Shown piece by piece: positions 31,950 to 62,886 of a stretch of DNA of 64,000 nucleotides. The notes beneath the pieces were generated by a model that did not search any database, was not told where the DNA came from, and saw only the letters and a program-made list of their open reading frames with translations. Origin of the DNA: Aminobacter anthyllidis (GTDB lineage: Bacteria > Pseudomonadota > Alphaproteobacteria > Rhizobiales > Rhizobiaceae); contig NZ_JAFLWW010000003.1 in assembly GCF_018555685.1 (NCBI RefSeq), positions 124,001 through 188,000 of the forward strand, given 5' to 3'. Both the position numbers and the translations under genes were made by a program. Numbering within the stretch: position 1 is the first letter of the stretch; every line of letters starts with the position of its first letter.

Positions 31950-31999
31950 CGGCAGTGCCCGTTCGTCCCTCAACCCTCGTTTTCGCAAGGCATGCCATC

Positions 32000-32413: not shown

Positions 32414-32540
32414 CACATCAGCGCCAAAGTCGAGCGGCGATCATAGGCGAATCGACAGTTTGGAGCGCTCGCTCCAGCGACCGAAGCAGCCGGTCAATCC
32501 TGCCGGCTTCTTCACTTTCATGCGGCAAAAGGAGAACTAG

Positions 32541-33041: not shown

Positions 33042-33058
33042 GTGGAATGGTTTGCGTG

Positions 33059-33081
33059 GGCTGCCCCCGAAACGGGCAGCC
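33059..33081 (+). terminator. Hairpin after the RidA gene, possible weak terminator
   Basis: GGCTGCCC and GGGCAGCC form a perfect eight-base stem with a seven-base loop 17 bases after the stop. There is no T-run, so it may act as an mRNA 3' end stabiliser rather than an intrinsic terminator. Confidence 0.4.
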
Positions 33082-33105
33082 TGCGCGCTCGACAGCGGCT
33101 GACGG

Positions 33106-34449: not shown

Positions 34450-34585
34450 GCAGCGAAGCAACGCCTGTTGCGGCGTGAGAAAATCATTTCCGCAGCACTG
34501 CTGCAATTGTAACAAACGCGATTTACTCGGCCGGGAAATCACGCTTCTATCCGGCCCGTCGAAGTCGAAGCGGGGAGATCTGAGC

Positions 34586-47172: not shown

Positions 47173-48552
47173 TCAGGCTTTCCTCAGATCGGCTTCGGCA
47201 AGGTCGAGCGCCTTCAGGATGCGGTCGCCTGCCATGTCGATCGTGGCGCGCGTCCAGATCAGCGGCGGCGACAGGATCATCGAGTCGCCCGTCGCCCGCA
47301 TCATCATGCCGTTGGCGATGGCGTGGTCGCGCACAACAACCGCGGCACTGCCTCCCGGCGAGAAGCGCTCCTTGGTCGCCTTGTCCTTGACGATCTCAAT
47401 GGCGCCCATCAGGCCAACCGAACGCACCTCGCCGACCAGGCCATGGCCAGCAATGCGTTCCTTCAGCATCTGGGCGAAATACGGACCGGTGTCGGTCTTC
47501 ACCCGCTCAACCAATCCCTCTCGTTCAATGATCTCGAGGTTCTTGAGCGCCACGGCACAGGCGACCGGGTGACCGGAATAGGTGTAGCCGTGGTAGAATT
47601 CGCCGCCCTTTTCGACGAGCGTCGCAGCGATACGGTCGCCGACCAGAAGAGCGGACAGCGGCTGATAGCCCGATGTCAACGCCTTGGCGGTGGTGATCGT
47701 GTCGGCTTCGATGCCAAAAGTCTGCGCCGCGAACCACTCGCCGGTGCGGCCATAACCGGTGATGACCTCGTCGAGCATCAGCAGCACGTCATACTTGCGG
47801 CAAATGCGCTGGATCTCCGGCCAGTAGCTCGCCGGCGGAATCTTGACGCCGCCCGCCCCCATGATCGGCTCGCCGATAAAGGCCGCGACATTTTCGGCAC
47901 CCGCCTCGAGGATCGCGTCCTCGACGGCCTTGGCGGCGCGCAGGCCGAAATCGTGATCGCTTTCGCCGGGCAGCGCCAGTTCATAGGCGTAGGGCATCAT
48001 CACATGGACGATGTTGGGCACCGCGCCGCCGAGCTGGTGGTGCATGCCATCCATGCCGCCAAGCGAGGTGCCGGCGACGGTCGAGCCGTGATAGGCCATC
48101 TTGCGCGAGATGATGCGGTTCTTCTCGGGCTTGCCCTCGAGCGCCCAGTAGTGGCGCACCAGGCGCAGCGCCGTGTCGTTGGATTCCGAGCCGGAGGAGC
48201 CATAAAACACCTGGTTGATGTTCTTCGGCGCCAGTTCCGCAAGCTTCTTCGACAGCAGCACCGGCGTCGGCGTCGAGCATTTGAAGAAGGAGTTGTAGTA
48301 GGGCATTTCCTTCATCTGGGCATAGGCCGCTTCGGCCAGCTCGTCGCGGCCATAGCCGACATTGACGCACCACAGGCCAGCCATGCCGTCGAGCAGTTCC
48401 GTGCCTTCCGAATCGTAGATGAACGGGCCCTCGGCTCGGGTGATCATGCGCGAGCCGATTTCGCGCAGTTCCTTGTGATCGGTGAACGGGTGGAGATGGT
48501 GCGCGGCATCGATCTGCTGAAGCTGCTTCAGCGAATAGTTCTGATAAGTCAT
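47173..48552 (-). CDS. Class III omega-aminotransferase (beta-alanine/putrescine-pyruvate type)
   Basis: 459 residues, MTYQNYSLKQ, pyridoxal-phosphate enzyme. Class III features: LLDGMAGLWCVNVGYGRDEL near the N-terminus, FYGSSGSESNDTALRL, FIGEPIMGAGGVKIPP, LMLDEVITGYGRTGEWFAAQ, and the Schiff-base Lys in TTAKALTSGYQPLSA. Moves amino groups from omega-amino acids or diamines to pyruvate or similar acceptors. Which amine is used cannot be read from sequence. The complementary strand carries a 546-residue shadow frame. Confidence 0.88.
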   Translation of the reverse strand: MTYQNYSLKQLQQIDAAHHLHPFTDHKELREIGSRMITRAEGPFIYDSEGTELLDGMAGLWCVNVGYGRDELAEAAYAQMKEMPYYNSFFKCSTPTPVLLSKKLAELAPKNINQVFYGSSGSESNDTALRLVRHYWALEGKPEKNRIISRKMAYHGSTVAGTSLGGMDGMHHQLGGAVPNIVHVMMPYAYELALPGESDHDFGLRAAKAVEDAILEAGAENVAAFIGEPIMGAGGVKIPPASYWPEIQRICRKYDVLLMLDEVITGYGRTGEWFAAQTFGIEADTITTAKALTSGYQPLSALLVGDRIAATLVEKGGEFYHGYTYSGHPVACAVALKNLEIIEREGLVERVKTDTGPYFAQMLKERIAGHGLVGEVRSVGLMGAIEIVKDKATKERFSPGGSAAVVVRDHAIANGMMMRATGDSMILSPPLIWTRATIDMAGDRILKALDLAEADLRKA

Positions 48553-49306: not shown

Positions 49307-50485
49307 TTAGCTGGTACTCCGCCGCCGTGACGCCGCGCGATAGAGGGCAAAGGCGAGCAGCATGATGTTGAGGCTCGCCAGCACGGCTGGCAGCCCGATC
49401 GGTCCGAACGCCTGCATCACCATGCCGGAACTTGGCGGGCCGACGATACCGCCAAAGCCCCACATCAACGCGAACGCTGCGTTACCGGCGACGAGCAGAC
49501 TGCCGTTGAAACGATTGCCAAGCTCGACCAGCGCCATGGTGTAGACACCGTAGCCGACCGCCCCCATTATGACGAGGACCGGCCAGATCAGCGACGTCTC
49601 GATCAGGATCGGCAACAGCACTGCGCAGGTGGCGGTTGCTGCTGCGCAAAACAGGATCATGGTGCGGCCACCCACGCGCTCCGCCATCAGGCCGAGCGGA
49701 ATCTGCAGCAGGATGTTGCCCATCGACAGTGCCGTCAGCATTGCGGCCAGCACCGCCTCAGGCAGGCCATGGCCCGCGCCGAAAACCGGCAGCAGCGAAT
49801 AGGTGCTCTGCTGGTTGGCTGCCGACACCAGAACGGCAAACAACAGCGCCGGCGCAAGTGCTGCAAAGCCCAGAACGCCGCCCTTCGACTGACCGTCATC
49901 CTCGAAGCCGGACAGATCGGACAAGATGCGCAGGACGGTGGCACAGGCGAGGAAGCCGACGATCGCGATGACGAATGGCGTCCAGCCTGCCGTGCCGACG
50001 AAGGTCAGCACCAGCGGCCCGCTGGCATACCCCACCCCCATCAGCGTGTTGAACACGCCCATGACACGGCCGCGTCGCGACGGCGGCGCCATCGACAGCG
50101 CCCACACCTCGCCCAGGATGTAGAGCGGGTTGATGACCACGCCGATCATGAAGCGCACGACAAACCAGGCAAACCAGTCCTGAAGGTAGCCGATAAGCAG
50201 GAAACAGGCTGCTGCAGCGAGCGAGCAGCCGACCGCAAGGTTTCGCGCCCCAACGAGACGCACGGCCGCTGGCACGAAGGCTGCTGACGCGATCAGCCCC
50301 AGCGGCATCATCGCAGCCGACAGGCCGATCATCGCCGGCGACATGCCCTGCTTCTGCATCAGCAGTGAGAACAGCGGGTAGCTCAGCCCCTGCGCTGCGC
50401 CAAACATCGCAAGTGCTGCGGTAACGCCGACAAGAGGAGCCCATCTGAGCGGCGGCTCGTCAGCTACGGAAGCGGAAGAAATCAA
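49307..50485 (-). CDS. MFS transporter
   Basis: 392 residues, MISSASVADE, with about twelve membrane helices. MFS marks include the loop between helices 2 and 3 (LVGARNLAVG) and RGRVMGVFNTLMGVGYASGP in the middle. The gene shares its upstream region, including a repeated motif, with the divergent mttB-like cluster; uptake of that cluster's substrate is a reasonable idea but is inferred only from position. The substrate cannot be predicted from the sequence. Confidence 0.85.
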   Translation of the reverse strand: MISSASVADEPPLRWAPLVGVTAALAMFGAAQGLSYPLFSLLMQKQGMSPAMIGLSAAMMPLGLIASAAFVPAAVRLVGARNLAVGCSLAAAACFLLIGYLQDWFAWFVVRFMIGVVINPLYILGEVWALSMAPPSRRGRVMGVFNTLMGVGYASGPLVLTFVGTAGWTPFVIAIVGFLACATVLRILSDLSGFEDDGQSKGGVLGFAALAPALLFAVLVSAANQQSTYSLLPVFGAGHGLPEAVLAAMLTALSMGNILLQIPLGLMAERVGGRTMILFCAAATATCAVLLPILIETSLIWPVLVIMGAVGYGVYTMALVELGNRFNGSLLVAGNAAFALMWGFGGIVGPPSSGMVMQAFGPIGLPAVLASLNIMLLAFALYRAASRRRSTS

Positions 50486-50570: not shown

Positions 50571-50620
50571 GTCCAGTCCTAACTGCACAGCCCCGGGCCT
50601 AACTGCCCGGGCCTAACTGC
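50571..50620. promoter_or_regulatory. Repeated motif in the MFS/mttB divergent region
   Basis: CCTAACTGC occurs three times (50578-50586, 50598-50606, 50612-50620), the first preceded by GGTCCAGT, the last two separated by CCGGG. On the minus strand it reads as three GCAGTTAGG units ending in ACTGGACC. The same composite motif is found upstream of gabD at 17832-17865. It lies 86-136 bases before the MFS start and 100-150 before the mttB-like start. A MocR-type operator is my best guess. Confidence 0.45.
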
Positions 50621-50719
50621 AATGTCGTTTCCCTCGCGCTACTTGTCGCCGCCTCCGCAATGAGCCGCACCGCCCCGGTCCATTATGCCCGCGACACTGA
50701 AGCTTGCCGTGAGGATTCC

Positions 50720-52297
50720 ATGACCGTGGCCCTGCAAACAGCCGAACAGGCCCCTGCCTCCGATCGCGCTCGCCGCGGCGGCCGTGCCGGCAAGCGCGCC
50801 GGCGGGTCAGCCGCATTTGAGCAACCGCCCTTCCGCCAGCTCAAGATACCTTTCACACCGACCAAGCTGATCTCCGACGACCAGCTGGAATCGATCCACC
50901 TTGCATCGCTGCGGGTACTGAAGGAGATCGGCGTGGACGTGCTGCATGACGAAGCGCGCCGCATCATGAAGGCGCACGGCGCCGACGTGCGTGACGGTTC
51001 GGAACGCGTACGCTTCGATTCAGACATGATCCTGGAATTGATCTCGCATGCACCGGCCGAATTCACGCTGCATGCCCGCAATCCGGACCACAACGTGCGT
51101 TTCGGTGGCAACAACCTCGTCATCTCACAGATGGCGTCGGCACCCAACTGCTCCGATCTCGATCGGGGACGGCGGCCGGGCAACCAGGCCGACTACCGCA
51201 ATTTCCTCAAGCTCGCCCAGATGCACAACATCCTGAACACAACTGGCGGCTATCCGGTCGAGCCGGTGGACATCCACCCTTCGGTGCGCCACCTCGAATG
51301 TATCCGTGACCTCGCGACGCTGACCGACAAGGTGTTTCACATCTATTCGCTCGGCAAGGAGCGCAATGTCGACGGCATCGAGATCGCCCGAATCGCCCGC
51401 GGCATTTCCCGCGAGCAGATGATCGCCGAACCCTCGGTCTATACCATCATCAACACCAATTCGCCGCTCAAGCTCGACGTGCCGATGATGGAAGGCATCA
51501 TTCAGATGTCGTCGATGGGCCAGGTGGTGATCGTCACCCCCTTCACCCTGTCGGGTGCCATGGCCCCCGTCACCATTGCCGGCGCGCTGGTGCAGCAGAA
51601 TGCCGAAGCGCTGTCGGGTCTTGCCTTCACCCAGATGGTCCGCAAGGGAGCACCTGTCGGTTATGGCGGCTTCACCTCCAACGTCGACATGAAATCGGGC
51701 GCCCCGGCCTTCGGCACGCCTGAATATATGAAGGCCCAGCTTGTCGGCGGCCAGCTCGCCCGCCGCTACAACATCCCCTACCGCACCTCCAATGTCTGCG
51801 CCGCCAACGCGGTCGACGCCCAGGCGGCCTATGAAAGCGTCTTCTCCTTGTGGGGCGCGATCCAGGGCGGCGCCAATTTCATTCTCCACGGTGCCGGCTG
51901 GCTCGAAGGTGGTTTGCGCTGCTCGTACGAGAAGATGATCCTCGACATCGACCTTTTGCAGATGGTGGCCGAGTTCCTGACCCCGCTCGACATGTCGGAA
52001 GAGGCGCTCGCCATCGACGCCATCCGCGACGTCGGCCCCGGCGGCCATTTCTTCGGCACCCAGCACACCCAGGATCGCTACAAGAACGCGTTTTACTCGC
52101 CTGTTATCTCCGACTGGCGCAATTTCGAGACCTGGGCCGAGGCCGGCAGCCCAACAGCCGTAGAAAAAGCAAACCGCGTCTGGAAGGAGCGCCTCGCCTC
52201 CTATGAGGAGCCGTGGATGGACCCGGCCATTCGCGAGGAACTCAACGCCTTCGTCGACAAGCGCAAGGCCGAAGGCGGCGCGCCGACCGATTTCTGA
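50720..52297 (+). CDS. Trimethylamine methyltransferase (MttB) family protein, non-pyrrolysine
   Basis: 525 residues from MTVALQTAEQ, with GAGG before the ATG at 50720; the frame opens earlier at 50660. MttB/COG5598 superfamily by MHNILNTTGGYPVEPVDIHPS (in parts), YTIINTNSPLKLDVPMMEGI, VVIVTPFTLSGAMAPVTIAGAL, and GGANFILHGAGWLEGGL. There is no in-frame TAG, so it does not use pyrrolysine; non-pyrrolysine members studied in other bacteria demethylate betaines such as glycine betaine. No corrinoid protein gene is adjacent, so the methyl acceptor is unclear. First of four genes probably transcribed together. Confidence 0.87.
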   Translation: MTVALQTAEQAPASDRARRGGRAGKRAGGSAAFEQPPFRQLKIPFTPTKLISDDQLESIHLASLRVLKEIGVDVLHDEARRIMKAHGADVRDGSERVRFDSDMILELISHAPAEFTLHARNPDHNVRFGGNNLVISQMASAPNCSDLDRGRRPGNQADYRNFLKLAQMHNILNTTGGYPVEPVDIHPSVRHLECIRDLATLTDKVFHIYSLGKERNVDGIEIARIARGISREQMIAEPSVYTIINTNSPLKLDVPMMEGIIQMSSMGQVVIVTPFTLSGAMAPVTIAGALVQQNAEALSGLAFTQMVRKGAPVGYGGFTSNVDMKSGAPAFGTPEYMKAQLVGGQLARRYNIPYRTSNVCAANAVDAQAAYESVFSLWGAIQGGANFILHGAGWLEGGLRCSYEKMILDIDLLQMVAEFLTPLDMSEEALAIDAIRDVGPGGHFFGTQHTQDRYKNAFYSPVISDWRNFETWAEAGSPTAVEKANRVWKERLASYEEPWMDPAIREELNAFVDKRKAEGGAPTDF

Positions 52298-52308
52298 GGA
52301 CGGTTCCC

Positions 52309-52692
52309 ATGCAACGACGAGAGATCAACGCCCAAGACGCTCCGTTACCCGCCGGCGGTTACGCTCAGGCGATCGAAGTGACGAACAATTCGCGCACGCT
52401 TTACATCAGCGGCCAGATTCCGGTCGCCAAGGATGGTTCGGTTCCCGACGATTTCGACAGCCAGTGCTGGCTCGCCTGGCGCAATGTCGAGGCACAGCTG
52501 CATGCCGCCGGCATGACCCTCGACAATCTGGTCAAGGTCACGATCTTCCTTTCCAGCCGCGCATATGCCCTCGACAACCGCCGCATCCGCGCGGAAGTGC
52601 TCGGCGGCAGAAAGATCGCGATGTCGGTGATCATCGCCGGAATTTTCGACGAAGCCTGGCTACTGGAAATCGAAGGCGTGGCGACCGCCTGA
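52309..52692 (+). CDS. Cytosolic RidA/YjgF family protein
   Basis: 127 residues from MQRREINAQD, 11 bases after the mttB-like stop, with GAGGA before the ATG. RidA fold: PLPAGGYAQAIEVTNNSRTLYISGQIP, QCWLAWRNVEAQLHAAGMTLDNLVKVTIFL, and LLEIEGVA at the end. The site of the conserved catalytic Arg in the usual PAR.. segment here reads LGGRKIAMSVI, where the Arg is followed by Lys and may be shifted, so enzymatic imine hydrolysis is less certain than for the exported paralogue at 32.5 kb. Confidence 0.85.
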   Translation: MQRREINAQDAPLPAGGYAQAIEVTNNSRTLYISGQIPVAKDGSVPDDFDSQCWLAWRNVEAQLHAAGMTLDNLVKVTIFLSSRAYALDNRRIRAEVLGGRKIAMSVIIAGIFDEAWLLEIEGVATA

Positions 52693-52738
52693 GCCATCAA
52701 CTCCCAGATTCATTTTACGCACAACTGGACATAACCTG

Positions 52739-55312
52739 ATGAAATCCCATGTGAAAGCAGTTGTCATCGGTGGTGGCGTGGTTGGCTGCTCGGTGCTCTA
52801 TCACCTCGCCCGCGCCGGCTGGACCGACGTCATGCTGATCGAACGCTCGGAGCTGACCTCCGGCTCGTCATGGCACGCCGCCGGCGGCTTCCACACGCTC
52901 AACGGCGATCCGAACGTCGCCAAGCTGCAAGCCTACACCGTCCAGCTCTACAAGGAGCTAGAGGAGATCTCCGGCCAGTCCTGCTCGCTGCACCTGACCG
53001 GTGGCGTCATGCTTGCTGACAGCCCAGAGCGCATGGACTTCCTGCGCCTCGCCCATGCCAAGGGCCGCTATCTCGGCATGGACACCGAACTCATCACGCC
53101 GTCAGAAGCCAAGAAGATGTTCCCGCTGATGGACGAAAAGCATTTCGTCGGCGCCATGTGGGACCCGGTCGAAGGCCATCTCGACCCGTCGGGCACGACC
53201 CATGCCTACGCCAAGGCGGCGAAGAAGCTCGGCGCCGAGATCGTGCTGCGCAACCCCGTGAAGGAGTTGACGCAGGATCCTGACGGCATCTGGAATGTTG
53301 TCACCGAGCAGGGAACCGTCAGGGCCGAGCACGTCGTCAACTGCGGCGGCCTGTGGGCGCGCGAGGTCGGCCGCATGGTCGGCGTCGAGCTGCCGGTGCT
53401 GGCCATGGAGCATATGTATCTGCTCACCGAGCCGATGCCCGAGGTCGAGGCCTTCAACAAGGAAACCGGCCGCGAAATGATCGGCGTTCTCGACTTCAAG
53501 GGCGAGATTTACACACGCCAGGAGCGCAACGGCATCCTGCTCGGCACCTATGAGAAGGCCTGCAAGCCGTGGTCGCCGGTCAACACGCCATGGGACTTCG
53601 GCCACGAACTGCTCGCCCCCGACCTCGACCGCATCGCCCCTTCGCTGGAGATCGGCTTCCAGCATTTCCCCGGCATTGCCAATGCTGGCATCAAGCAGGT
53701 CATCAACGGCCCCTTCACCTTCGCGCCCGACGGTAATCCGCTGGTCGGCCCGGTCCAGGGCCTGACCAATTTCTGGGTCGCGTGCGGCGTCATGGCCGGC
53801 TTCAGCCAGGGTGGCGGTGTCGGCCTTGCGCTGTCCAACTGGATGGTCGATGGCGACCCGGGCTTCGACGTCTGGGGCATGGATGTCGCGCGCTGGGGTG
53901 AATGGGCATCGCTGCGCTACACCAATGCCAAGGTGCGCGAGAATTATTCGCGCCGCTTCTCGATCCGTTTCCCCAATGAAGAGCTCCCCGCCGCCAGGCC
54001 GGCCCAGACCACGCCGCTCTACGACACCATGGTCGCCAACAACGCCGTCATGGGCGACAGCTGGGGCCTGGAAACGCCGCTATGGTTCGCACCTCAAGGC
54101 ACTGAGCCGAAGGACATCGTCTCCTTCCACCGCTCCAACGATTTCGAGCATATCGGCAATGAGGTTCGCGCCACCCGTGAGCGCGTTGGCGTGACCGAGA
54201 TCGCCAACTTCGCCAAATACGAGGTCTCGGGTCCGGCATCGGAGGATTTCCTCAACCGGCTGATGACCAACCGCATGCCGAAGAAGGGCCGCATCGTGCT
54301 GACGCCGATGCTCAACGAGTTCGGCCGGCTGATCGGCGACTTCACGATTGCCAAGACCGGCGACGACAAGTTCATGATCTGGGGCTCGTCGGCAGCGCAG
54401 AAATACCACATGCGCTGGTTCGAAAAGCACCTGCCCAAGGACGGGTCGGTGCGCATCCACCGCTTCGACCAGACGCTCGTCGGCCTGTCCATAGCTGGCC
54501 CGAAGTCGCAGGCGCTGCTGGCCAAGCTTGTCGACGTCGATGTGTCGAGCAAGGCCTTTCGCTTCATGGACTTCCGCGAGATGGCCGTCGGCGGCGCGCC
54601 ATGCATGGTCAACCGCATCACCTATACCGGCGACCTCGGCTACGAGATCTGGATGGCGCCAACCTACCAGCGCCTCGTCTACAAGGCGATCAAGGACGCC
54701 GGCGAGGAGTTCGGCATCGTCGATTTCGGCATGCGCGCGCTGCTTTCGATGCGCCTCGAAAAGAACTTCCCGACCTGGTTCCGCGAGTTGCGACCGATCT
54801 ATGGGCCGTTCGAGGGATCGATGGAACGCTTCATCAAGCTCGAGAAGAACGACTTCATCGGCCGCGAGGCAGCCGCCAAGGAGCACGCCGAGGGGCCGAA
54901 GCTGCGTCGTGTCTCCTTCTATGTCGATGCGCAGGACGCCGACGTGATGGGCGACGAGCCGATCTGGGCCAAGATCGGCGCCAAGGATTTCGGCACAATC
55001 GAAAAGCCGCATGGCTATGGTGCGCCGCGCTTTGACGAAACCGGCAAGGAAGTGCGCGGCTCGGACGCCGCAACTGGCGCCTCCGCCGTGCGCGGCATCG
55101 TCGACGGCGACTGGCGCGTGGTCGGCTGGGTGACGTCGGGCGGCTATGCCCACTATGTCGAGAAATCGATGGCGCAGGGTTACGTGCCGGCAGCGCTCGC
55201 TGAAAACGAGGCGGAAGGCCTGTTCGAGATCGAGATCCTCGGCCACCGCCGCCCCGCCCGCATCAATGTCGAGCCGCCTTTCGATCCGTCAGGCGACAAG
55301 ATGCGGGGGTAA
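52739..55312 (+). CDS. FAD-dependent dimethylglycine/sarcosine dehydrogenase-like protein with GcvT domain
   Basis: 857 residues, MKSHVKAVVI. An FAD-binding oxidoreductase domain fills about 1-400: VVIGGGVVGCSVLYHLARAG and SGSSWHAAGG, where His46 is the residue that carries covalent FAD in dimethylglycine dehydrogenase. The rest is a GcvT/aminomethyltransferase domain with its tetrahydrofolate site (about 430-850; YEVSGPASEDFLNRLMTNRMP, GDLGYEIWM, FGMRALLSMRLEKNFPTW). Such enzymes oxidise N-methyl groups and hand the one-carbon unit to tetrahydrofolate. Substrate may be dimethylglycine, sarcosine or a related methylated amine. The antisense frame is a shadow. Confidence 0.9.
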   Translation: MKSHVKAVVIGGGVVGCSVLYHLARAGWTDVMLIERSELTSGSSWHAAGGFHTLNGDPNVAKLQAYTVQLYKELEEISGQSCSLHLTGGVMLADSPERMDFLRLAHAKGRYLGMDTELITPSEAKKMFPLMDEKHFVGAMWDPVEGHLDPSGTTHAYAKAAKKLGAEIVLRNPVKELTQDPDGIWNVVTEQGTVRAEHVVNCGGLWAREVGRMVGVELPVLAMEHMYLLTEPMPEVEAFNKETGREMIGVLDFKGEIYTRQERNGILLGTYEKACKPWSPVNTPWDFGHELLAPDLDRIAPSLEIGFQHFPGIANAGIKQVINGPFTFAPDGNPLVGPVQGLTNFWVACGVMAGFSQGGGVGLALSNWMVDGDPGFDVWGMDVARWGEWASLRYTNAKVRENYSRRFSIRFPNEELPAARPAQTTPLYDTMVANNAVMGDSWGLETPLWFAPQGTEPKDIVSFHRSNDFEHIGNEVRATRERVGVTEIANFAKYEVSGPASEDFLNRLMTNRMPKKGRIVLTPMLNEFGRLIGDFTIAKTGDDKFMIWGSSAAQKYHMRWFEKHLPKDGSVRIHRFDQTLVGLSIAGPKSQALLAKLVDVDVSSKAFRFMDFREMAVGGAPCMVNRITYTGDLGYEIWMAPTYQRLVYKAIKDAGEEFGIVDFGMRALLSMRLEKNFPTWFRELRPIYGPFEGSMERFIKLEKNDFIGREAAAKEHAEGPKLRRVSFYVDAQDADVMGDEPIWAKIGAKDFGTIEKPHGYGAPRFDETGKEVRGSDAATGASAVRGIVDGDWRVVGWVTSGGYAHYVEKSMAQGYVPAALAENEAEGLFEIEILGHRRPARINVEPPFDPSGDKMRG

Positions 55313-55360
55313 CCTCACGCAGGGATCGGGAACGCAAATGCTCTACGTTGCCCCCCTCTG

Positions 55361-55494
55361 TCCTGCCGGACATCTCCCCCACAAGGGGGGAGATTGGCTG
55401 TCATGCTCGCCTCACCCCTTCTCGACCGCCTCAGGAATCGCGCATAGGTCGCAACTGCTGATCTCCCCCCTTGTGGGGGAGATGTCCGGTAGGA
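55361..55494. repeat. Long inverted repeat between the dehydrogenase and DddP-like genes
   Basis: A 29-base arm at 55366-55394 pairs perfectly with 55461-55489, and the match extends about five more bases outward with one mismatch. Each arm is itself a hairpin (ATCTCCCCC with GGGGGAGAT around ACAA or TTGT). The 66-base loop has no gene. Elements with a CCGGACATCTCCCCC core are common in Mesorhizobium intergenic regions in my memory. It interrupts the four-gene set and could lower or process expression of the last gene. Confidence 0.8.
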
Positions 55495-55531
55495 AGGAAC
55501 GACGCCTTCAACCATCAAAGGGGTGTCGCTG

Positions 55532-56884
55532 ATGGAAACCCCCGCAAAAGGCAATTTCGGCCGCCACCGCAAGATCATGCCGTTCGAGCCTGGCTCGGCG
55601 GAGGACCTGCGCGAGCGAGCCCGCACCAAGGCGGCAGCACTAAACCAGCACGTTCTGGGTTATGGAGCACAGGCCGAAGCCGAATGGGCGGCGGCCGGCA
55701 TCGCGGCACCCGACATGCCGGCCCTGCGCAAGTACCGGCTGGAGCGCATCCGCACCGAGCTCGCGCGGCGCGGTTATGCCGGCGCCCTGCTCTACGATCC
55801 CGTCAACATTCGCTACGCCACCGATTCGACCAACATGCAGCTGTGGGTGGCGCACAACCCGACCCGTCACTGTTTCGTCGCCACCGACGGCCCGGTGGTG
55901 CTGTTCGACTACTTCTCCTGCGAGCACCTGTCCGATCATTCCGGCGTCGTCGACGAGGTTCGCCCGGCAGTGTCGTGGATGTATCTCTACAGCGGCGAAA
56001 TGACGGAGATGAAGGTCGAGCGCTGGGCGCAAGGCATCGCCGATGTCCTTGGCGAGCACGGCGGCGGCGTCAGGCGCATTGCCGTCGACCATCTCGACCA
56101 TAACGGCGTCGACGCGCTGGCACGGCTTGGCATTTCGGTCGGCAATGGCGAGGCGGTGATGGAAAACGCCCGGCTGATCAAGTCGCCTGACGAAATCCTC
56201 TGCATGCGCCGTTCGATCGTCGCCTGCGAGGTGGCGATGAGCGAGATGGAGGCAGCACTCCGGCCGGGCATCTCCGAGAACGAGCTCTGGGCCGAACTGC
56301 ATCGCGGCAACATCGCCCGCGGCGGCGAATGGATCGAAACCCGGCTCCTGGCATCGGGACCGCGCACCAATCCCTGGTTCCAGGAGTGCTCGTCGCGCGT
56401 GGTCGAGGCAGGCGATCTCGTCGCCTTCGACACCGATCTCATCGGGCCCTACGGATTTTGCGCCGACCTGTCGCGGACCTGGCTGTGCGGCGACGGCGAG
56501 CCCAAGAGCGAACAGCGCGACCTCTACAGGATTGCCGCCGAACAGATCGCCCACAATACGGCGCTGCTCAGGCCCGGCCTCGGTTTCCGCGAACTGGTGG
56601 AACGCGCGGCCGCGCCCCCGCCCGACTGCTTCCCGGCGCGTTATGGCGTGCTGTTCCACGGCGTGGGCCTGGCCGACGAATATCCCACCCTGCCCCACGC
56701 CTCCGACTGGACGGCCGATACGCCGGACGGCGTGCTCGAGCCCGGCATGGTGGTCTGCGTCGAGAGCTACATCGGCCGCCTCGGTGGGCATGAGGGCGTC
56801 AAGATCGAGGAGCAGATCCTGATCACTGAAAGCGGCAACGAGCAGCTCTCAAACTATCCGCTCGACAAGCGCCTGCTCGGCTAG
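55532..56884 (+). CDS. dddP: M24-fold enzyme, DddP (DMSP lyase)-like
   Basis: 450 residues from METPAKGNFG (AAAGGGG eight bases before; a GTG at 55523 also fits). The creatinase/aminopeptidase P fold is clear, and long blocks match what I remember of DddP: IRYATDSTNMQLW, HNPTRHCF, RGGEWIETRLLASGPRTNP, FQECSSRVVEAG, FDTDLIGPYGFCADLSRTW. The metal ligands Asp300, Asp302, Asp312, His376, Glu411, Glu426 and candidate catalytic residues Tyr371 and Asp382 sit at a constant offset of five from those I recall for Ruegeria DddP. DddP cleaves DMSP to dimethyl sulfide and acrylate. The family may include enzymes for other substrates, so the symbol is tentative. Last gene of the MttB/RidA/dehydrogenase set. 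Confidence 0.72.
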   Translation: METPAKGNFGRHRKIMPFEPGSAEDLRERARTKAAALNQHVLGYGAQAEAEWAAAGIAAPDMPALRKYRLERIRTELARRGYAGALLYDPVNIRYATDSTNMQLWVAHNPTRHCFVATDGPVVLFDYFSCEHLSDHSGVVDEVRPAVSWMYLYSGEMTEMKVERWAQGIADVLGEHGGGVRRIAVDHLDHNGVDALARLGISVGNGEAVMENARLIKSPDEILCMRRSIVACEVAMSEMEAALRPGISENELWAELHRGNIARGGEWIETRLLASGPRTNPWFQECSSRVVEAGDLVAFDTDLIGPYGFCADLSRTWLCGDGEPKSEQRDLYRIAAEQIAHNTALLRPGLGFRELVERAAAPPPDCFPARYGVLFHGVGLADEYPTLPHASDWTADTPDGVLEPGMVVCVESYIGRLGGHEGVKIEEQILITESGNEQLSNYPLDKRLLG

Positions 56885-57060
56885 GCGCCCAAAGCCCCGG
56901 CTTCCTGTTCGAGATATTCCAGCGACCAAGAACAGTTGATCGGCAGCCGAAATCGCTCGCCGGCGACTTTACTGCGATGGCGCAAGATCACTGGGCTGCC
57001 GGATTTGATGTGGACAGGAGCGGTGGCGAGTGGCTTCCGCGGCAAGCTGCACCGATAGTG

Positions 57061-57088
57061 AAAACGGCGCTGCAACATCGCCGTTTTT
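57061..57088 (+). terminator. Terminator hairpin just before the purine nucleoside permease gene
   Basis: AAAACGGCG (57061-57069), a nine-base loop, then CGCCGTTTTT (57079-57088). It is a good intrinsic terminator, 177 bases after the DddP-like stop and only 17 bases before the next start codon, so it either ends the upstream operon or forms a transcriptional attenuator for the permease gene. Confidence 0.8.
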
Positions 57089-57105
57089 CTCAGATCGGAT
57101 CGCAT

Positions 57106-58134
57106 ATGACGCACATCTATCGGATTGGCCTTTCAGCCCTCGCCCTTGCCGCCGGCTTTGCCTCGAACACATCAATGGCGTCGGCGGAGCCGCTGGCCCC
57201 CAAAGTGCTGGTCATAACGATGTTCGGAGGCGAGGCAAAACCATGGCTCGAGGGCCGCAAGCTGGAGACCAGGCTGACGATTCCGGGCTTCGCCAAGGAG
57301 TATCCGGAACTTGCCTGCGACGCTGCCGGGCTGTGCGTCATGACGACGGCGATGGGTTATGCCAATGCAGCAAGCTCGGTTTCAGCACTCGTCTACAGCG
57401 GTCTTGTCGACCTCAAGCAGAGCTACATCGTGATCGCCGGCATTGCTGGTGTCGATCCGAGCGATGGCACGCTGGGTTCGGCACATTGGGCGCGTTATGC
57501 CGTCGATGCCGGCCTGCGCCACGAAATCGATCCGCGCCAGATTCCCGCCGACTGGCCTGATGGCGTGGTCGGGCTGGGCGCCAAGCGACCCGGCGAAAAG
57601 CCGAGCTGGGGCTCGGCAACCGAGGTCTACCAGCTCAACGAGCAGCTGCTGCAGAAGGCATTTGCCCTGACCAAGAGCGTCGAACTCGCCGACAGCGCCG
57701 AAGCGAAGGCCTATCGCGTGGCCTACAAGACCGCACCCGGCAACGCTGCCCCAAGTGTCAGCATCTGTGACACGCTGTCGACTGACACCTACTGGCATGG
57801 CTCGATGACTGCCAAAAGCATGGGCGATTGGGTATCGTTGCTGACCGAGGGCAAGGGCAATTATTGCACGACCCAGATGGAGGACAACGCCTCGCTGACC
57901 GCGCTGCGGCGCGGCGCGGATGCCGACCTGCTCGATTTCGATCGCATCGCCTTGCTGCGCACGGCGTCGAACTTCGATCGCGAGCCCGCCGGCATGAGCC
58001 CCATCGAATCGCTGAGCGCCAAGTCGGGTGGCTTCGGTCCGGCAGCCATCAACGCCTATCGTGTCGGCGCGGCCTTTGCGGATGCTGTCACCGGCGATTG
58101 GGCGAAGTGGGAAAAGGGCGTGCCGTCAGAATAA
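57106..58134 (+). CDS. Exported purine nucleoside permease family protein
   Basis: 342 residues from MTHIYRIGLS with a signal peptide ending MASAEP. The NUP family (PF06516) is recognised from VLVITMFGGEAKPWLE, LCVMTTAMGYANAASSVSAL, YIVIAGIAGVDPSDGTLGSAHWARYAVDAGL (in parts), SDGLSTDTYWHG-like CDTLSTDTYWHG and NYCTTQMEDNASLTAL. It resembles nucleoside phosphorylases in fold and is probably periplasmic. Known family members take part in purine nucleoside uptake in yeasts; the bacterial role is not established. Confidence 0.87.
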   Translation: MTHIYRIGLSALALAAGFASNTSMASAEPLAPKVLVITMFGGEAKPWLEGRKLETRLTIPGFAKEYPELACDAAGLCVMTTAMGYANAASSVSALVYSGLVDLKQSYIVIAGIAGVDPSDGTLGSAHWARYAVDAGLRHEIDPRQIPADWPDGVVGLGAKRPGEKPSWGSATEVYQLNEQLLQKAFALTKSVELADSAEAKAYRVAYKTAPGNAAPSVSICDTLSTDTYWHGSMTAKSMGDWVSLLTEGKGNYCTTQMEDNASLTALRRGADADLLDFDRIALLRTASNFDREPAGMSPIESLSAKSGGFGPAAINAYRVGAAFADAVTGDWAKWEKGVPSE

Positions 58135-58177: not shown

Positions 58178-58990
58178 TCAAAGCGCGGCTTGGCTCAGCG
58201 CAAGGTTGAGCAACGTCACCGAAACGGGCGACGTGCTTGGCCCGGTGATGTAAGGCAAGCCCTTGCGTTTTGCTGTCCAACCGATGACCACGACGTCCCG
58301 GGCAGCCGGCTCGAAGCGCTGCGCCAGCGCCCAGCTCCGGCAATCGATGGTTGCCACGTCGGCCCGGCCCTCGGAGATGGCGACGATCGACGCGCGATGG
58401 CCGCCGCTTTCGATGCGTTCGGAAAAAATCCGCAATCCCTCGCCCATGGCGGCAAGATCGCGCGAGATACCGATGAACCCCGACATCGAATCGTGGCTGT
58501 TGAAGGCCAGGCGCTTGTCGCGGATCAGATCGAGCGGGATGAGCGGCGCATCGCCGTCGGGGGCATGCGCATGGTCGGCGGTCACCGTTCCGCGCCGCAC
58601 GACGATGGCGCTGGAATAGAGTTCGCCACGACCGCCTTCGATGCCGTCATAGTTTGGCTGACCGATCACCTTGACCTGAGCCGCAAGGCCCGTGCTTTCC
58701 ATCGGCCCCCAGCAGGTCTGGCCGAACAGCAATTGGGGATGCCGCCACAGCGTCGGCAGGTCGAGTTCTTCGGGCGGCAGCGTAGCCGGGTCGAATGCAA
58801 TCACCACACCCGATGCGTCGCGAATACCACCTGGAACCGCCGGCAGATCGGCGTTGCGCCTGGCAAGGCGTTCCGGCGCGTCCAAACCAAGCTGACGCAA
58901 CGCCGTTCGCAACCTGGCCCATTGCGCATCGACCTCGTCGCGCATCTCGGGCCAGTCATACATGGGCAGTGCGGCGATGAAGTCGCTCAT
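58178..58990 (-). CDS. PhnD-like substrate-binding protein without a signal peptide
   Basis: 270 residues, MSDFIAALPM. A PhnD-type ligand-binding fold is suggested by LLFGQTCWGPMESTG, DKRLAFNSHDSMSGFIGI, GGHRASIVAISEGRADVATIDCRSWAL, and YITGPSTSPVSV near the C-terminus. There is no signal peptide or lipobox, and no permease or ATPase gene is nearby, so it may act in the cytoplasm as a sensor or enzyme rather than in uptake. The ribosome site is weak. It follows the desaturase gene in the same direction with 48 bases between. Confidence 0.78.
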   Translation of the reverse strand: MSDFIAALPMYDWPEMRDEVDAQWARLRTALRQLGLDAPERLARRNADLPAVPGGIRDASGVVIAFDPATLPPEELDLPTLWRHPQLLFGQTCWGPMESTGLAAQVKVIGQPNYDGIEGGRGELYSSAIVVRRGTVTADHAHAPDGDAPLIPLDLIRDKRLAFNSHDSMSGFIGISRDLAAMGEGLRIFSERIESGGHRASIVAISEGRADVATIDCRSWALAQRFEPAARDVVVIGWTAKRKGLPYITGPSTSPVSVTLLNLALSQAAL

Positions 58991-59038
58991 TGCATCATTT
59001 CAGGCTCGAACGCGAGAATTGGCAAGCTCTGGAAGATA

Positions 59039-60049
59039 TCATTCCTTTGGCGGCTCGGCAGGCACCGGCGCGGTTCCAAGCCCGTTGACGCTGCGGGCCC
59101 TGACCCGTGGCACAAACGCCCTGCCCTGTTCGGGAGCGCGACGCAGCGCCGGATGGCAGACCGGCTCCTTGGCGCGGAAGGCATAGGCCCTGACCAGCGC
59201 GAAATAGTTGGGATAGACGTAGCCCTTGTTCATCTTCAGCCATTCCGCGCGGCGGGCGCGAAACAATGCCGGTAATTTGTACCAAGCAACCGTCGGGCTC
59301 TTGTGATGGACGAAATGCAGGTTGTTGTTGAGAAACAGCAGCGACAATGGCGAGCGCTCGACAATGACAGTGCGCCCTTCCGGGTGCTCCGACCACTGAT
59401 GCTCGGCAAAGGTTCGGATCGAAATCAGCGACTGGCCGAGCCATACCGGCACCAGCACATAGAGCCACAAGGGGACACCGAAGCCGAACTGTACCACCGG
59501 CAGCACCACCGCAAGGCCTGCGGCATGCAGTAGCCACGCTTTTCGGATGGCCTTGTCGCCGGCGACAATCTGCTTGGCGTCGTCGATGAAGAAGCCGACG
59601 CAGGCAAGCAGCGGCCCGAGCACGAAGCGCCCCGCCATGGTGTTGTTGATGCTGAGCAGCAACTTCATGCTGGCCGGCAGGTCGTCGTGCTGCCACAGCG
59701 CCCGATAGTAGCTTTCCGGGTCATCGAACGGATCGGTCAGGCGCTCGTCGGCATGATGGCGCAGGTGGATCGTCTTGAAGCGGCGATACGGCCAGACAAC
59801 GCCGATCGGCAAGGACACCAGCGCTTCGTTGATGCGCGCGTTTCGGGTGGGATGGCCGTGCAGCACCTCGTGCACCAGCGACGACTGGAGCGCAACCATA
59901 AGCGCCATCACCGCAAGAGCGGCCACCGGATAGGCCTGCCAGAGCAGCAGGCCGGCAGCAAGCCAGGTTCCGTAGCAGCCCAGGATGAGAAACACCGTCG
60001 GCCATTCGACCCCTGTGGTCGTGCCGCGTCTGTTTCCGTTCTTGGTCAT
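59039..60049 (-). CDS. Membrane fatty acid desaturase family protein
   Basis: 336 residues from MTKNGNRRGT; an ATG at 60142 is also open, but the family starts here and AGG precedes it. Three histidine clusters for the di-iron centre are visible: HEVLHGH (about residue 60), HLRHHADE (about 90) and NLHFVHH (about 247). Several membrane segments (VFLILGCYGTWLAAGLLLW, LVPVWLGQSLISI). It may desaturate or hydroxylate a lipid chain. The first cluster has the form H-x3-H-x-H and fits alkane- or lipid-acting members. Divergent from the XRE gene. Confidence 0.87.
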   Translation of the reverse strand: MTKNGNRRGTTTGVEWPTVFLILGCYGTWLAAGLLLWQAYPVAALAVMALMVALQSSLVHEVLHGHPTRNARINEALVSLPIGVVWPYRRFKTIHLRHHADERLTDPFDDPESYYRALWQHDDLPASMKLLLSINNTMAGRFVLGPLLACVGFFIDDAKQIVAGDKAIRKAWLLHAAGLAVVLPVVQFGFGVPLWLYVLVPVWLGQSLISIRTFAEHQWSEHPEGRTVIVERSPLSLLFLNNNLHFVHHKSPTVAWYKLPALFRARRAEWLKMNKGYVYPNYFALVRAYAFRAKEPVCHPALRRAPEQGRAFVPRVRARSVNGLGTAPVPAEPPKE

Positions 60050-60180
60050 GCGCTGCCTGCTGTCCTTGGATGCCTGGAACTCGATGATTCCTGACATAAT
60101 GCTGTCAGTAGTCATTGATTTCCGCAACGAGACAATGCGCACAGACTGTTTACATTGCGCTGCTCACGCCGCAAATGTTA

Positions 60181-60193
60181 TGTTTAGTAAACA
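60181..60193. promoter_or_regulatory. Perfect 13-base palindrome between desaturase and XRE regulator
   Basis: TGTTTAGTAAACA at 60181-60193 is fully self-complementary around its central G. A TGTTTAC half-site is found 34 bases upstream at 60147. The pair lies in the 217-base divergent region, 74 bases before the XRE start. A likely operator for the XRE protein or another dimeric regulator; the regulator is not known. Confidence 0.45.
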
Positions 60194-60266
60194 CTCCGGA
60201 CGATGAATCTAATTTGGATGGCCATGCGGCGGCGGATTCGCAAAACCATTCCCCAATGGGCAGGTC

Positions 60267-61124
60267 ATGGACAAACGCGATCTATCGGGTGTCTTCAGGG
60301 AGCGGCTCAAGGCGCTGGTGCAGCGCTCCGGCCTCAACCAGTCGGCCTTTGCTACCTCGGTCGGCATTGACCGTTCGGCGCTGTCGCAGCTGCTTTCGGG
60401 TGCCACCGTGCGCCTGCCGCGCGCCGAGACGCTGCTGACAATCGCCACCGCCCACAAGGTTTCGCTCGATTGGCTGCTCGGGCTCAGCCAGGACGAAGGC
60501 GTCACCGGCGAAATCCGCGAAAGCCTTGAAATCGAGGAGGCCTCCGGCGGTTTTGAACGGACGCTGATCGCCAAATGGCATGCCGAGGCAGCGGGCACGA
60601 AGATCCGCTATGTGCCAGCCGGCATCCCCGACCTTCTGCGCACCGAAGCATTGATCGACTACGAGGCCGATATCTCCAACAAGAGCCGCGAGGTCCAGGC
60701 CGGCGAGACACAGTACCGGATCGACTACAACCGCAGGCCCGAGACCGACATGGAGGTCTGCATGCCGCGCCACACGCTTGAGATTTTCGCGCGCGGGCTG
60801 GGCGTCTGGTCGGGCTTTCCCGACAAGGATCGCAAGCAGCAGCTTCGCCACATGGCCGACCTGCTCGACGATCTCTACCCGACCTTCCGCTTGTTTCTCT
60901 ATGACGGGCGCATGCGCTATTCCGTGCCCTACACGATCTTCGGCCATTCCCGCGCGGCGATCTATGTCGGCGACATGTACCTTGTGCTCTACGCCACCGA
61001 TCCGATCCGGACGCTGACCCGCCATTTCGACAATTTGATCCGCGCCGCCGACATCAACGCCCACGAGACCGCCGCCTTCGCGCGACGGCTGGCGGTGGCG
61101 TCTTTCCCGGCCAGTTGGGGCTGA
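60267..61124 (+). CDS. XRE-family regulator with C-terminal ligand-type domain
   Basis: 285 residues, MDKRDLSGVF. The helix-turn-helix of the lambda Cro type occupies about 12-70 (RLKALVQRSGLNQSAFATSVGIDRSALSQLLSG, in parts; TLLTIATAHKVSLDWLLGLS). The rest, about 200 residues, is an uncharacterised domain with MPRHTLEIFARGLG and YPTFRLFLYDGRMRYSVPYTIFGHSRAAIYVGDMYLVL (in parts), which looks like a sensory domain. Divergent from the desaturase and upstream of a DUF1989 gene, so it may control either. Confidence 0.85.
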   Translation: MDKRDLSGVFRERLKALVQRSGLNQSAFATSVGIDRSALSQLLSGATVRLPRAETLLTIATAHKVSLDWLLGLSQDEGVTGEIRESLEIEEASGGFERTLIAKWHAEAAGTKIRYVPAGIPDLLRTEALIDYEADISNKSREVQAGETQYRIDYNRRPETDMEVCMPRHTLEIFARGLGVWSGFPDKDRKQQLRHMADLLDDLYPTFRLFLYDGRMRYSVPYTIFGHSRAAIYVGDMYLVLYATDPIRTLTRHFDNLIRAADINAHETAAFARRLAVASFPASWG

Positions 61125-61190
61125 TTGGCGCTCAGGTTGAATTTGGCGCCGCGATACGGCAGCGTGCGGCGCACATCCCTGAGGAAACCG

Positions 61191-61802
61191 ATGCCAGATC
61201 AGAAAAATGTCGTCGTACCCGCCCAGTCGGGCCGTTCCATCCGCGTGTCCAGCGGAGACCTGGTCCGCATCATCGACATCAAGGGCCAGCAGGTCGCCGA
61301 CCTCTGGGCGTTCACGCCTGACTTGAAGGACTGGCTGAGCACGTCCAACACCCGCGACATCGGCGAGCGGCTGTTTCCCAAAACAGGCGAACATTTCTAC
61401 GGCACGACGGGCGTGCCTTTGCTGACGCTGGTCGAGGACGCTTCGCCGGGCCCGCACGACATGCTCTACCCCGCCTGCAATCATGCGCTCTATGTCCGTG
61501 CCGGCTTCGACGAGCACCCCAGTTGCCAGGACAATCTGCACAAGGCACTTGCCTCGGAAGGGCTCGCCTTGCCCTTCACGCCTGACCCGGTCGACCTGTT
61601 CCAGAACTCGCTGCCGCAGCCCGACGGCAGCATCGACGTCTTTGCCTCGATCAATCCGCCCGGCGGCTACGTAACGCTGCGCGCCGAATGCGACCTGCTG
61701 CTCGTCGTCACCGCGTGTTCGGTCGATCATTATCCGACCAATGGCGGCGTCTGCACCGAGATCGCGGTCGAAGTGACGCCAGCGGCACAGCCAGCCCTGT
61801 AA
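61191..61802 (+). CDS. DUF1989 / urea carboxylase-associated family protein
   Basis: 203 residues from MPDQKNVVVP with GAGGAAA before the ATG. DUF1989 pattern: an N-terminal VPAQSGRSIRVSSGDLVRIIDIKGQQVADLWAF (in parts), then YPACNHALYVRAGFDEHPSCQDNLHKAL and DVFASINPPGGYVTLRAECDLLLVVTACSVDHYPTNGG. Conserved Cys and His residues could bind a metal. Family members are found with urea and guanidine catabolism genes; no such genes are near. Runs 66 bases after the XRE gene in the same direction. Confidence 0.83.
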   Translation: MPDQKNVVVPAQSGRSIRVSSGDLVRIIDIKGQQVADLWAFTPDLKDWLSTSNTRDIGERLFPKTGEHFYGTTGVPLLTLVEDASPGPHDMLYPACNHALYVRAGFDEHPSCQDNLHKALASEGLALPFTPDPVDLFQNSLPQPDGSIDVFASINPPGGYVTLRAECDLLLVVTACSVDHYPTNGGVCTEIAVEVTPAAQPAL

Positions 61803-61807
61803 ACGCG

Positions 61808-61837
61808 TTGACTGGACATAAAGACTTCTTTATATCC
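61808..61837 (+). promoter_or_regulatory. Promoter with embedded palindromic operator for the betaine-homocysteine methyltransferase
   Basis: A near-consensus promoter reads TTGACT (61808-61813), 17 bases, TATATC (61831-61836). The spacer and -10 box carry an inverted repeat ATAAAGA-CT-TCTTTAT (61818-61833), which extends outward to GGA...TCC with one mismatch (61814-61837). A repressor binding here would block RNA polymerase directly. ATAAAG...CTTTAT palindromes resemble the sites I recall for ArsR-type S-adenosylmethionine/S-adenosylhomocysteine regulators of methionine genes in alphaproteobacteria. Confidence 0.75.
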
Positions 61838-61869
61838 TTATCCAATCTCCTGATATGAAAGTCGCTGCG

Positions 61870-62886
61870 ATGACGACCAATCCGATCGATGCCCTGCTGG
61901 CCGAAAAGGGCGTGCTGCTCGCCGATGGCGCGACCGGCACCAACCTGTTTGCCATGGGCCTCGAGGCCGGCGAAGCACCCGAGCTGTGGAACGAAAGCGC
62001 GCCCGAAAAGATCTCGACGCTGCACCGGAAGTTCGTCGAAGCCGGCGCCGACATCATCCTCACCAACTCGTTCGGCGGCACCCGTCACCGGCTCAAGCTG
62101 CATCACGCCCAGGACCGGGTTCACGAACTCAACAAGCGCGCTGCCGAAATCGCCCGCGCCGTTGCCGACAAGGCCGGCCGCAAGGTTGTCGTTGCCGGCT
62201 CCGTCGGCCCGACCGGCGAGCTTCTGGTTCCGCTCGGTGCCATGACTTATGACGAGGCAGTCGATGCCTTCGCCGAACAGATCGAAGGCCTCAAGGCCGG
62301 TGGCGCCGAAGTCGCCTGGATCGAAACGATGTCCGCCCCGGACGAGATCCGCGCCGCTGCCGAGGCAGCCATCCGTGTCGGCCTGCCCTACACCTATACC
62401 GGCTCGTTCGACACCGCCGGCCGCACCATGATGGGTCTGCTGCCCAAGGACATCCACGGCGTTGTCGACGGCCTTGCCGAGACGCCGCTCGGCGTCGGCG
62501 CGAACTGCGGCGTTGGCGCTTCCGACATCCTGGCCTCGCTGCTCGACATGAGCGAAGCCAGGCCGGATGCGACCATCATCATCAAGGGCAATTGCGGCAT
62601 TCCGGAATTCCGCGGCACCGAGATCCACTATTCGGGTACGCCCGAACTGATGTCGGACTATGTCAGGCTCGCTGTCGATGGCGGCGCCAGGATCATCGGC
62701 GGCTGCTGCGGCACCTCGTTCGAGCATCTGGCCGCGATGCGCAAGGCGCTCGACGCCCACAAGAAGGACGTTCGTCCAACCGTCGAGGCGATCATCGAGC
62801 GCATCGGCCCGATGCGTAACAAGCTGGCCGCGCCGAACACCACGGAAACCAGCGAAGGCCGCCGCGAACGCCGCCGCCGCGGCTGA
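61870..62886 (+). CDS. bmt: Betaine-homocysteine S-methyltransferase
   Basis: Transfers a methyl group from glycine betaine to homocysteine, making methionine and dimethylglycine. 338 residues from MTTNPIDALL; an ATG at 61855 is 15 bases upstream but leaves only about a 12-base leader. Zinc-binding cysteines are in GANCGVG (about residue 220) and GGCCGTS (about 283), as in homocysteine methyltransferases. Other marks: LADGATGTNLFAMGLE, NSFGGTRHRLKLH, GSVGPTGELL. Its promoter has a palindromic operator. It converges with a small hypothetical gene. Confidence 0.87.
   Translation: MTTNPIDALLAEKGVLLADGATGTNLFAMGLEAGEAPELWNESAPEKISTLHRKFVEAGADIILTNSFGGTRHRLKLHHAQDRVHELNKRAAEIARAVADKAGRKVVVAGSVGPTGELLVPLGAMTYDEAVDAFAEQIEGLKAGGAEVAWIETMSAPDEIRAAAEAAIRVGLPYTYTGSFDTAGRTMMGLLPKDIHGVVDGLAETPLGVGANCGVGASDILASLLDMSEARPDATIIIKGNCGIPEFRGTEIHYSGTPELMSDYVRLAVDGGARIIGGCCGTSFEHLAAMRKALDAHKKDVRPTVEAIIERIGPMRNKLAAPNTTETSEGRRERRRRG

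Follow-up and report, generated by a model that had tools for sequence, protein, structure and literature searches.

In the 64,000-nucleotide window of Aminobacter anthyllidis analysed here, a gene for an MttB-superfamily methyltransferase and a gene for a flavoprotein resembling dimethylglycine dehydrogenase (DMGDH) form a conserved pair, which probably strips methyl groups from a betaine. Judging from gene families and gene order, we propose with moderate confidence that the two genes constitute a substrate-specific entry branch of aerobic cobalamin-dependent betaine demethylation. They are accompanied by a Rid-superfamily gene and by a gene for an M24 protein related to DddP, the widespread marine lyase that releases dimethyl sulfide from dimethylsulfoniopropionate (DMSP). 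Gene calls and profile matches confirm the sequence-only reading that these four genes (C23:174660-180884 in contig coordinates; Table 1) run in one direction, on the plus strand, and are divergent from an MFS carrier. The locus is real, conserved and of a known chemical kind: aerobic corrinoid-dependent and then flavin/folate demethylation, with a DddP relative as its most interesting component. We found no paper describing this gene combination in the open-licence literature.

Gene order was compared in a profile scan of genome contigs with an alignment of nine DMGDH-like proteins as the query. The scan gave at least 589 relatives, of which the best 80 loci were kept; many of these are close kin (Mesorhizobium and allies), and the closest named DMGDH-like relative is that of Aminobacter ciceronei (98%). 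An MttB gene lies directly upstream of the DMGDH-like gene (same strand, ending no more than 2.5 kb away) in 48 of the 76 kept loci that have at least 1.2 kb of upstream flank, including Roseibium, Stappia and Phyllobacterium. In 30 of the 76 loci with at least 2.5 kb of downstream flank, the start of a DddP-like gene is no more than 6 kb from the end of the DMGDH-like gene, and a Rid gene is near in just 3 of 78. Within the genus, orthologs of the MttB-like protein (93-97% identity) and of the DddP-like protein (89-94%) are present in all nine of the genomes searched; Rid is at the locus in 6/10 genomes (own genome counted) and is gone from it in 4/10. The four genes are real and co-directional, yet they are not one conserved four-gene system. 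Their treatment as a single set does not survive the comparison, because Rid and the DddP-like gene vary among relatives. Conservation of gene order across relatives, which had been chosen beforehand as the refuting test, fails for Rid and in part for the DddP-like gene, and holds for the MttB-DMGDH pair.

The boundaries of the four-gene set were also drawn too narrow, since many relatives also have the downstream PhnD-like, desaturase-like, HTH and BHMT genes (58178-62886) beside the core. Four Rhodobacteraceae loci (L214, L220, L222 and L224) have the order HTH-desaturase-PhnD-DMGDH; MttB lies beyond the HTH gene in L214 and L224, a piece of MttB cut by the contig end is found in L220, and the L222 contig stops at HTH. 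A description of the functional unit as MttB-DMGDH, frequently joined by PhnD-like, desaturase-like and HTH genes, fits these loci better than the original list of four. The PhnD-like and desaturase-like genes (58178-60142) stay by the DMGDH-like gene across orders, and may be part of the pathway.

Alternatively, the genes might share no pathway and simply be neighbours in a conserved but heterogeneous block. The surrounding genes (acyl-CoA dehydrogenase, HIBDH-type gene, aminotransferase, VWA and sigma factor) are also conserved and seem an assorted collection, Rid and the DddP-like gene come and go, and the DMGDH-like gene is also found without MttB. However, MttB and the DMGDH-like gene stay together outside this block: they are adjacent in Roseibium and Stappia, lie a few kb apart in Granulosicoccaceae (L229, L231 and L240), and occur together on Sinorhizobium and Parasedimentitalea plasmids. 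We therefore consider a chance neighbourhood improbable. Plasmid loci of Sinorhizobium meliloti, Parasedimentitalea, Terrarubrum, Mesorhizobium and Shinella carry MttB with a FAD oxidoreductase that is 39-49% identical to the DMGDH-like protein over nearly its full length. An M24 gene joins the two in S. meliloti, Shinella, Parasedimentitalea and Terrarubrum, and is absent from the stretch examined in Mesorhizobium, Paracoccus and two other Rhodobacteraceae plasmids.

The MttB-like protein matches PF06253 over the full profile (1-500 of 500). Its open frame of 545 amino acids has no in-frame amber codon, so the protein is not of the pyrrolysine type; its true start may lie up to ∼ 20 codons downstream of the called one. 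It scores 303 bits against TIGR02369 (cut-off 525), and its nearest PDB chains are 4yyc (380 bits) and then 2qne and 9yce (329 bits, ∼ 3e-97). The genome encodes four PF06253 genes, and the corrinoid-adjacent copy reaches 983 bits with 4yyc and 421-422 bits with 2qne and 9yce. In a quick tree of 56 rows (Shimodaira-Hasegawa-like approximate likelihood ratio (SH-aLRT) support only, R. pomeroyi MtgB not among the rows), the window protein belongs to a 37-row clade (SH-aLRT 97), whereas the corrinoid-linked copies fall in a different clade of 16 rows (SH-aLRT 92). If MtgB proper is taken as the copy linked to the corrinoid gene, the window protein is outside it. Most MttB genes that neighbour DMGDH-like oxidoreductases or DddP-like genes are in the 37-row clade; the exceptions, in the 16-row clade, are copies linked to a DddP-like gene in G004 and G006 (L129, L130) and copies linked to an oxidoreductase in L108 and L110. 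From its separate clade, the window MttB is likely to use a different substrate from the corrinoid-linked copy. In Mesorhizobium alhagi, an mttB gene of unassigned function was reported to be strongly salt-induced and its deletion to have no salt phenotype (PMC4302635).

The dehydrogenase has the domain architecture of DMGDH (DAO, FAO_M, GCV_T and GCV_T_C). Its alignment with human DMGDH (5l46, E-value 2.9e-170) spans residues 2-744 and 793-846, and it retains the WHAAG motif, which has a role in covalent flavin attachment. These features would also suit a redundant glycine betaine route, which would follow the known pathway from glycine betaine to dimethylglycine by MttB and on to sarcosine by the DMGDH-like enzyme. 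Human DMGDH is indeed the best PDB match of the dehydrogenase, the MttB-like protein matches the glycine betaine methyltransferase chains 2qne and 9yce, and BHMT-type and corrinoid genes are nearby. However, the corrinoid-adjacent MttB is closer than the window copy to each of the three chains named above, and the window copy sits in a separate clade. We regard a redundant glycine betaine route as possible but rather unlikely.

The proposed entry branch needs a corrinoid partner, and the sole free-standing corrinoid protein found in the genome (C23:199720-200436; PF02310 and PF02607, the latter at C23:199786) is encoded ∼ 23 kb downstream of the window MttB gene and followed by a DUF1638 gene. 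The second of the two PF02607 places in the genome is in a 1270-residue frame that also matches Pterin_bind and is MetH-like, as expected for MetH. The same contig encodes a pterin-binding protein (C23:205806-206486, Pterin_bind) and a protein of the RACo/RamA type (C23:208334-209146), the only RACo_C_ter match in the genome. The corrinoid, pterin-binding, RACo/RamA-type, DUF1638 and BHMT-type genes all lie within ∼ 35 kb of the start of the set. In L200, L203, L204, L209 and L233, a second MttB, a corrinoid gene, DUF1638 and BHMT are within ∼ 12 kb of the DMGDH-like gene. Matched by family only, the genome has the corrinoid, pterin-binding, reactivation and homocysteine modules of MtgBCDE, described as a glycine betaine demethylation system and split methionine synthase of Ruegeria pomeroyi (PMC12478193). 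The authors of that work note that extra PF06253 genes may serve other methylated compounds. The nearby corrinoid machinery fits an extra, substrate-specific entry to this Ruegeria route (PMC12478193).

From the observed presence, families and linkage of these genes we infer the following enzyme activities and substrates. MttB would take a methyl group off a quaternary betaine and load it onto the only free-standing corrinoid protein; the pterin-binding protein would pass the methyl to tetrahydrofolate, while the RACo/RamA-type and DUF1638 proteins would keep the corrinoid reduced. The DMGDH-like flavoprotein would oxidise an N-methyl of the resulting tertiary amine and deliver the carbon to folate in its own GcvT half. 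Where present, the DddP-like M24 protein may cleave or trim a related betaine. Methyl removal by two routes, as suggested earlier, is plausible as a series in which flavin oxidation follows corrinoid transfer. Elsewhere, MttB or DddP-like genes have as neighbours glycine betaine-type transporters, mandelate racemase-like enzymes, hydroxyproline epimerase and sarcosine oxidase, which suggests amino-acid betaines as the substrate class. More speculatively, a beta- or omega-amino-acid betaine would be an apt substrate should the class III aminotransferase of the window block use omega-amino acids. Homarine catabolism was considered as another candidate pathway; a paper citing work on it links N-methylglutamate dehydrogenase to homarine (PMC13390433). 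If our proposal is correct, the recently shown aerobic corrinoid route extends beyond glycine betaine, in rhizobia and in marine bacteria (Roseibium, Stappia).

Several observations weigh against the proposed entry branch. MttB is not directly upstream in 28 of the 76 loci, and in 20 of these none was detected in the available flank (some flanks are short); loci with full flanks and no MttB, such as Hoeflea L205 and L206, HTCC2255 L225 and Flavimaribacter L217, argue that the DMGDH-like enzyme is able to act without it. Many of the 48 loci with the pair are closely related. Five other full-length DMGDH-like proteins are encoded in the genome at 35-36% identity, with a sixth at 28%, values that set the window protein apart as a separate subfamily. 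The four-gene set itself contains no corrinoid protein, and no betaine transport gene is constant across the loci compared.

The intergenic gaps of the set are, in order, 11, 46 and 210 bases. The first two suggest that the first three genes are read together. The 210-base gap upstream of the DddP-like gene contains an inverted-repeat element (DNA fold z −6.7, 86 matching pieces genome-wide), so that co-transcription of this gene with the preceding ones is uncertain. A promoter and terminator scan gave no signal above chance, and Rfam and tRNA searches of the whole window gave zero matches.

The sequence-only reading had RidA handling enamine or imine products, a chemistry that we reject for this protein. 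The residue aligned to the arginine of the 'PARS' stretch, which we take to be the catalytic arginine, was checked in 20 matches (11 distinct genes): the window protein, G007, G008 and G009 have Met there, and all remaining orthologs read have Leu. The window protein thus lacks the conserved arginine of RidA imine deaminases, and its gene, as noted above, is not constant at the locus within the genus. Rid subfamilies without this arginine are reported not to hydrolyse imines, the residue being essential (PMC4433059). Rid is not needed in the pathway we propose.

The DddP-like protein scores 474.5 bits against NF043017, the DddP equivalog model, and misses the cut-off of 600; proteins of Oceanisphaera (626.5) and Paracoccus yeei (849.8) pass, and five further relatives fail (315-440). 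In a 60-row tree it is in a clade of its own (18 rows, 100/99), outside the clade of RlDddP. Together with a 4-row clade (100/99) and DddP proper, whose 12 rows (100/100) include RlDddP, this clade makes up a 34-row group (97/94); the tree does not settle the branching order of the three. Two members of the 4-row clade adjoin MttB (L117, L118). In the alignment, the iron ligands and the catalytic W, Y and D residues of DddP are kept: the equivalents of RlDddP W95, D295, D297, D307, Y366, H371, D377, E406 and E421 are present in the window protein and throughout the 17 further rows of its clade. At D377, chain 4s01 has Asn in the alignment, as expected of an active-site mutant. In the M24 proteins of the S. 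meliloti and Shinella plasmids, Tyr replaces the W and Gly the catalytic D, so these proteins are unlikely to work as DddP does. At L080 (G041), a second DddP-like gene (45% identical) lies between the MttB and DMGDH-like genes and has Phe and Gly at these two positions.

If this were a DMSP locus, with the DddP-like protein acting as a genuine DMSP lyase and the remaining genes handling the methyl groups of DMSP, the kept residues would be accounted for. In the DddP mechanism, iron holds the carboxylate, Trp and Tyr are at the sulfur and Asp is the base (review PMC5395565). One AcuI/YhdH-type protein above cut-off is also present in the genome. However, its gene is on a different contig (C25), the DddP-like protein misses the equivalog cut-off (474 vs 600) and falls outside the RlDddP clade, and several outer DddP-like clades sit with N-demethylation genes; we give a DMSP locus little credence. 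The claim of a betaine or sulfonium catabolic system is therefore retained in its betaine part, for which the families, the gene order and the nearby corrinoid machinery of the MttB-DMGDH pair argue, and not for DMSP as substrate, even though the catalytic residues are kept.

The window locus aside, we compared the surroundings of 32 DddP-like loci (31 from outside the window clade and one, G043, from within it) with those of 28 ordinary M24 loci from the same genome set. Outside the window clade there are 33 full-length DddP-like places at 39% or above, of which G096:C81 and the second place of G041 were left out. MttB or Rieske genes, a combination defined within the same analysis, are commoner at the DddP-like loci than at the control loci (11/32 vs 0/28, p 4e-4), a difference to be taken as indicative. 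MttB is near six of the 32 and none of the controls (p 0.026), as is a DMGDH-like gene (6/32 vs 0/28), and a Rieske gene is near five (vs 0/28), two of the matches being 25% identical and two 31-35%. The marker for betaine ABC (ATP-binding cassette) ATPases pointed the opposite way (7/32 vs 17/28, p 0.003), since it recognises ABC ATPases generally, and we set it aside post hoc; with it included, 'any marker' gives no separation (18/32 vs 18/28). A post hoc grouping of MttB, DMGDH-like, Rieske, BHMT, hydroxyproline epimerase or mandelate racemase-like genes, counted by hand, gives 16/32 vs 1/28 (p 5e-5). The test is partly circular, since marker proteins come in part from loci found via DddP-like hits; one marker locus and its match (L111, L137) are nearly identical in sequence, related loci are counted separately and flank lengths vary. 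All these figures are indicative only because of the partly circular markers and the separate counting of related loci.

We tentatively suggest, as an unlikely history, that DddP arose from M24 enzymes of nitrogen-betaine catabolism. Equipped with the DddP catalytic set, the window clade, which with one other is nearest to DddP proper here, would then break the C-N bond in a nitrogen analogue of DMSP, for example beta-alanine betaine or a demethylated form of it, while MttB and the DMGDH-like enzyme carry out demethylation. If true, the origin of DddP would gain a natural setting; its reported KM for DMSP of 14-17 mM (PMC5395565) is weak for a natural substrate.

Other features of the region are included in Table 1. 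The NUP-family gene is at the same place in G001, G002 and A. ciceronei (L176) and was not found there in G009 and G005. At Roseibium L232 (6090-8116), a phosphotransferase-family (APH) gene and an ABC transporter ATPase lie upstream of MttB; from its sequence the transporter reads as polyamine-type. Elsewhere in the window (30348-36067), three consecutive genes encode a flavin amine oxidase, another Rid-family protein, whose N-terminus is hydrophobic, and a family 5 solute-binding protein; this is possibly an amine-oxidase/Rid pair.

Table 1. Features of the locus, in window coordinates (ORF, open reading frame).
Feature	Position	Strand	Basis and remarks
MttB-superfamily methyltransferase	50660..52297	+	PF06253 E 8.6e-203; core gene
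Rid-superfamily protein without catalytic Arg	52309..52692	+	PF01042 5e-17; accessory
DMGDH-like FAD dehydrogenase with folate-binding GcvT half	52739..55312	+	DAO+FAO_M+GCV_T+GCV_T_C; core gene
Inverted-repeat element between DMGDH-like and DddP-like genes	55361..55500	.	fold z -6.74; 86 matching genome pieces
DddP-like M24 protein, clade beside DMSP lyase DddP	55523..56884	+	NF043017 474.5 bits; accessory
Divergent MFS carrier, variable in relatives	49307..50485	-	PF07690
NUP-family gene between DddP-like and PhnD-like genes	56977..58134		
PhnD-like protein, recurrent DMGDH-like neighbour	58178..58990	-	PF12974; ORF cluster in 47/80 loci
Desaturase-like protein, recurrent neighbour	59039..60142	-	PF00487; ORF cluster in 43/80 loci
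HTH regulator, recurrent neighbour	60267..61124	+	PF01381; ORF cluster in 34/80 loci
DUF1989 protein	61125..61802	+	PF09347
BHMT-type homocysteine methyltransferase, MtgE-like by family	61855..62886	+	NF005718 566 bits > 338; PF02574
Class III aminotransferase	47173..48552		NF005682 717 bits; recurs in 27/80 loci (ORF clustering)

The Rid protein resembles the Rid4-Rid7 subfamilies (PMC4433059) in being a PF01042 protein without the arginine of imine hydrolysis; it differs from them in that the window protein and its orthologs have Met or Leu at this position. Like DddP (RlDddP, 4rzy), the DddP-like protein is of the M24 family with the iron ligands and the proposed W, Y and D residues, whereas it lies below the equivalog cut-off, in its own clade and among betaine-type gene neighbours. 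The DMGDH-like protein aligns with dimethylglycine dehydrogenase (human 5l46, rat-type 4p9s) over the two stretches given above, WHAAG included, but represents its own subfamily, 35-36% identical to the five full-length paralogues. The closest system as a whole is MtgBCDE of R. pomeroyi (PMC12478193), whose PF06253, free-standing corrinoid, pterin-binding, DUF1638, RamA-type and BHMT-type families are likewise found in one region here. The Aminobacter genome differs in that it also has a MetH-like frame, and in that the window MttB belongs to another clade than the corrinoid-adjacent copy and is paired with a DMGDH-like gene.

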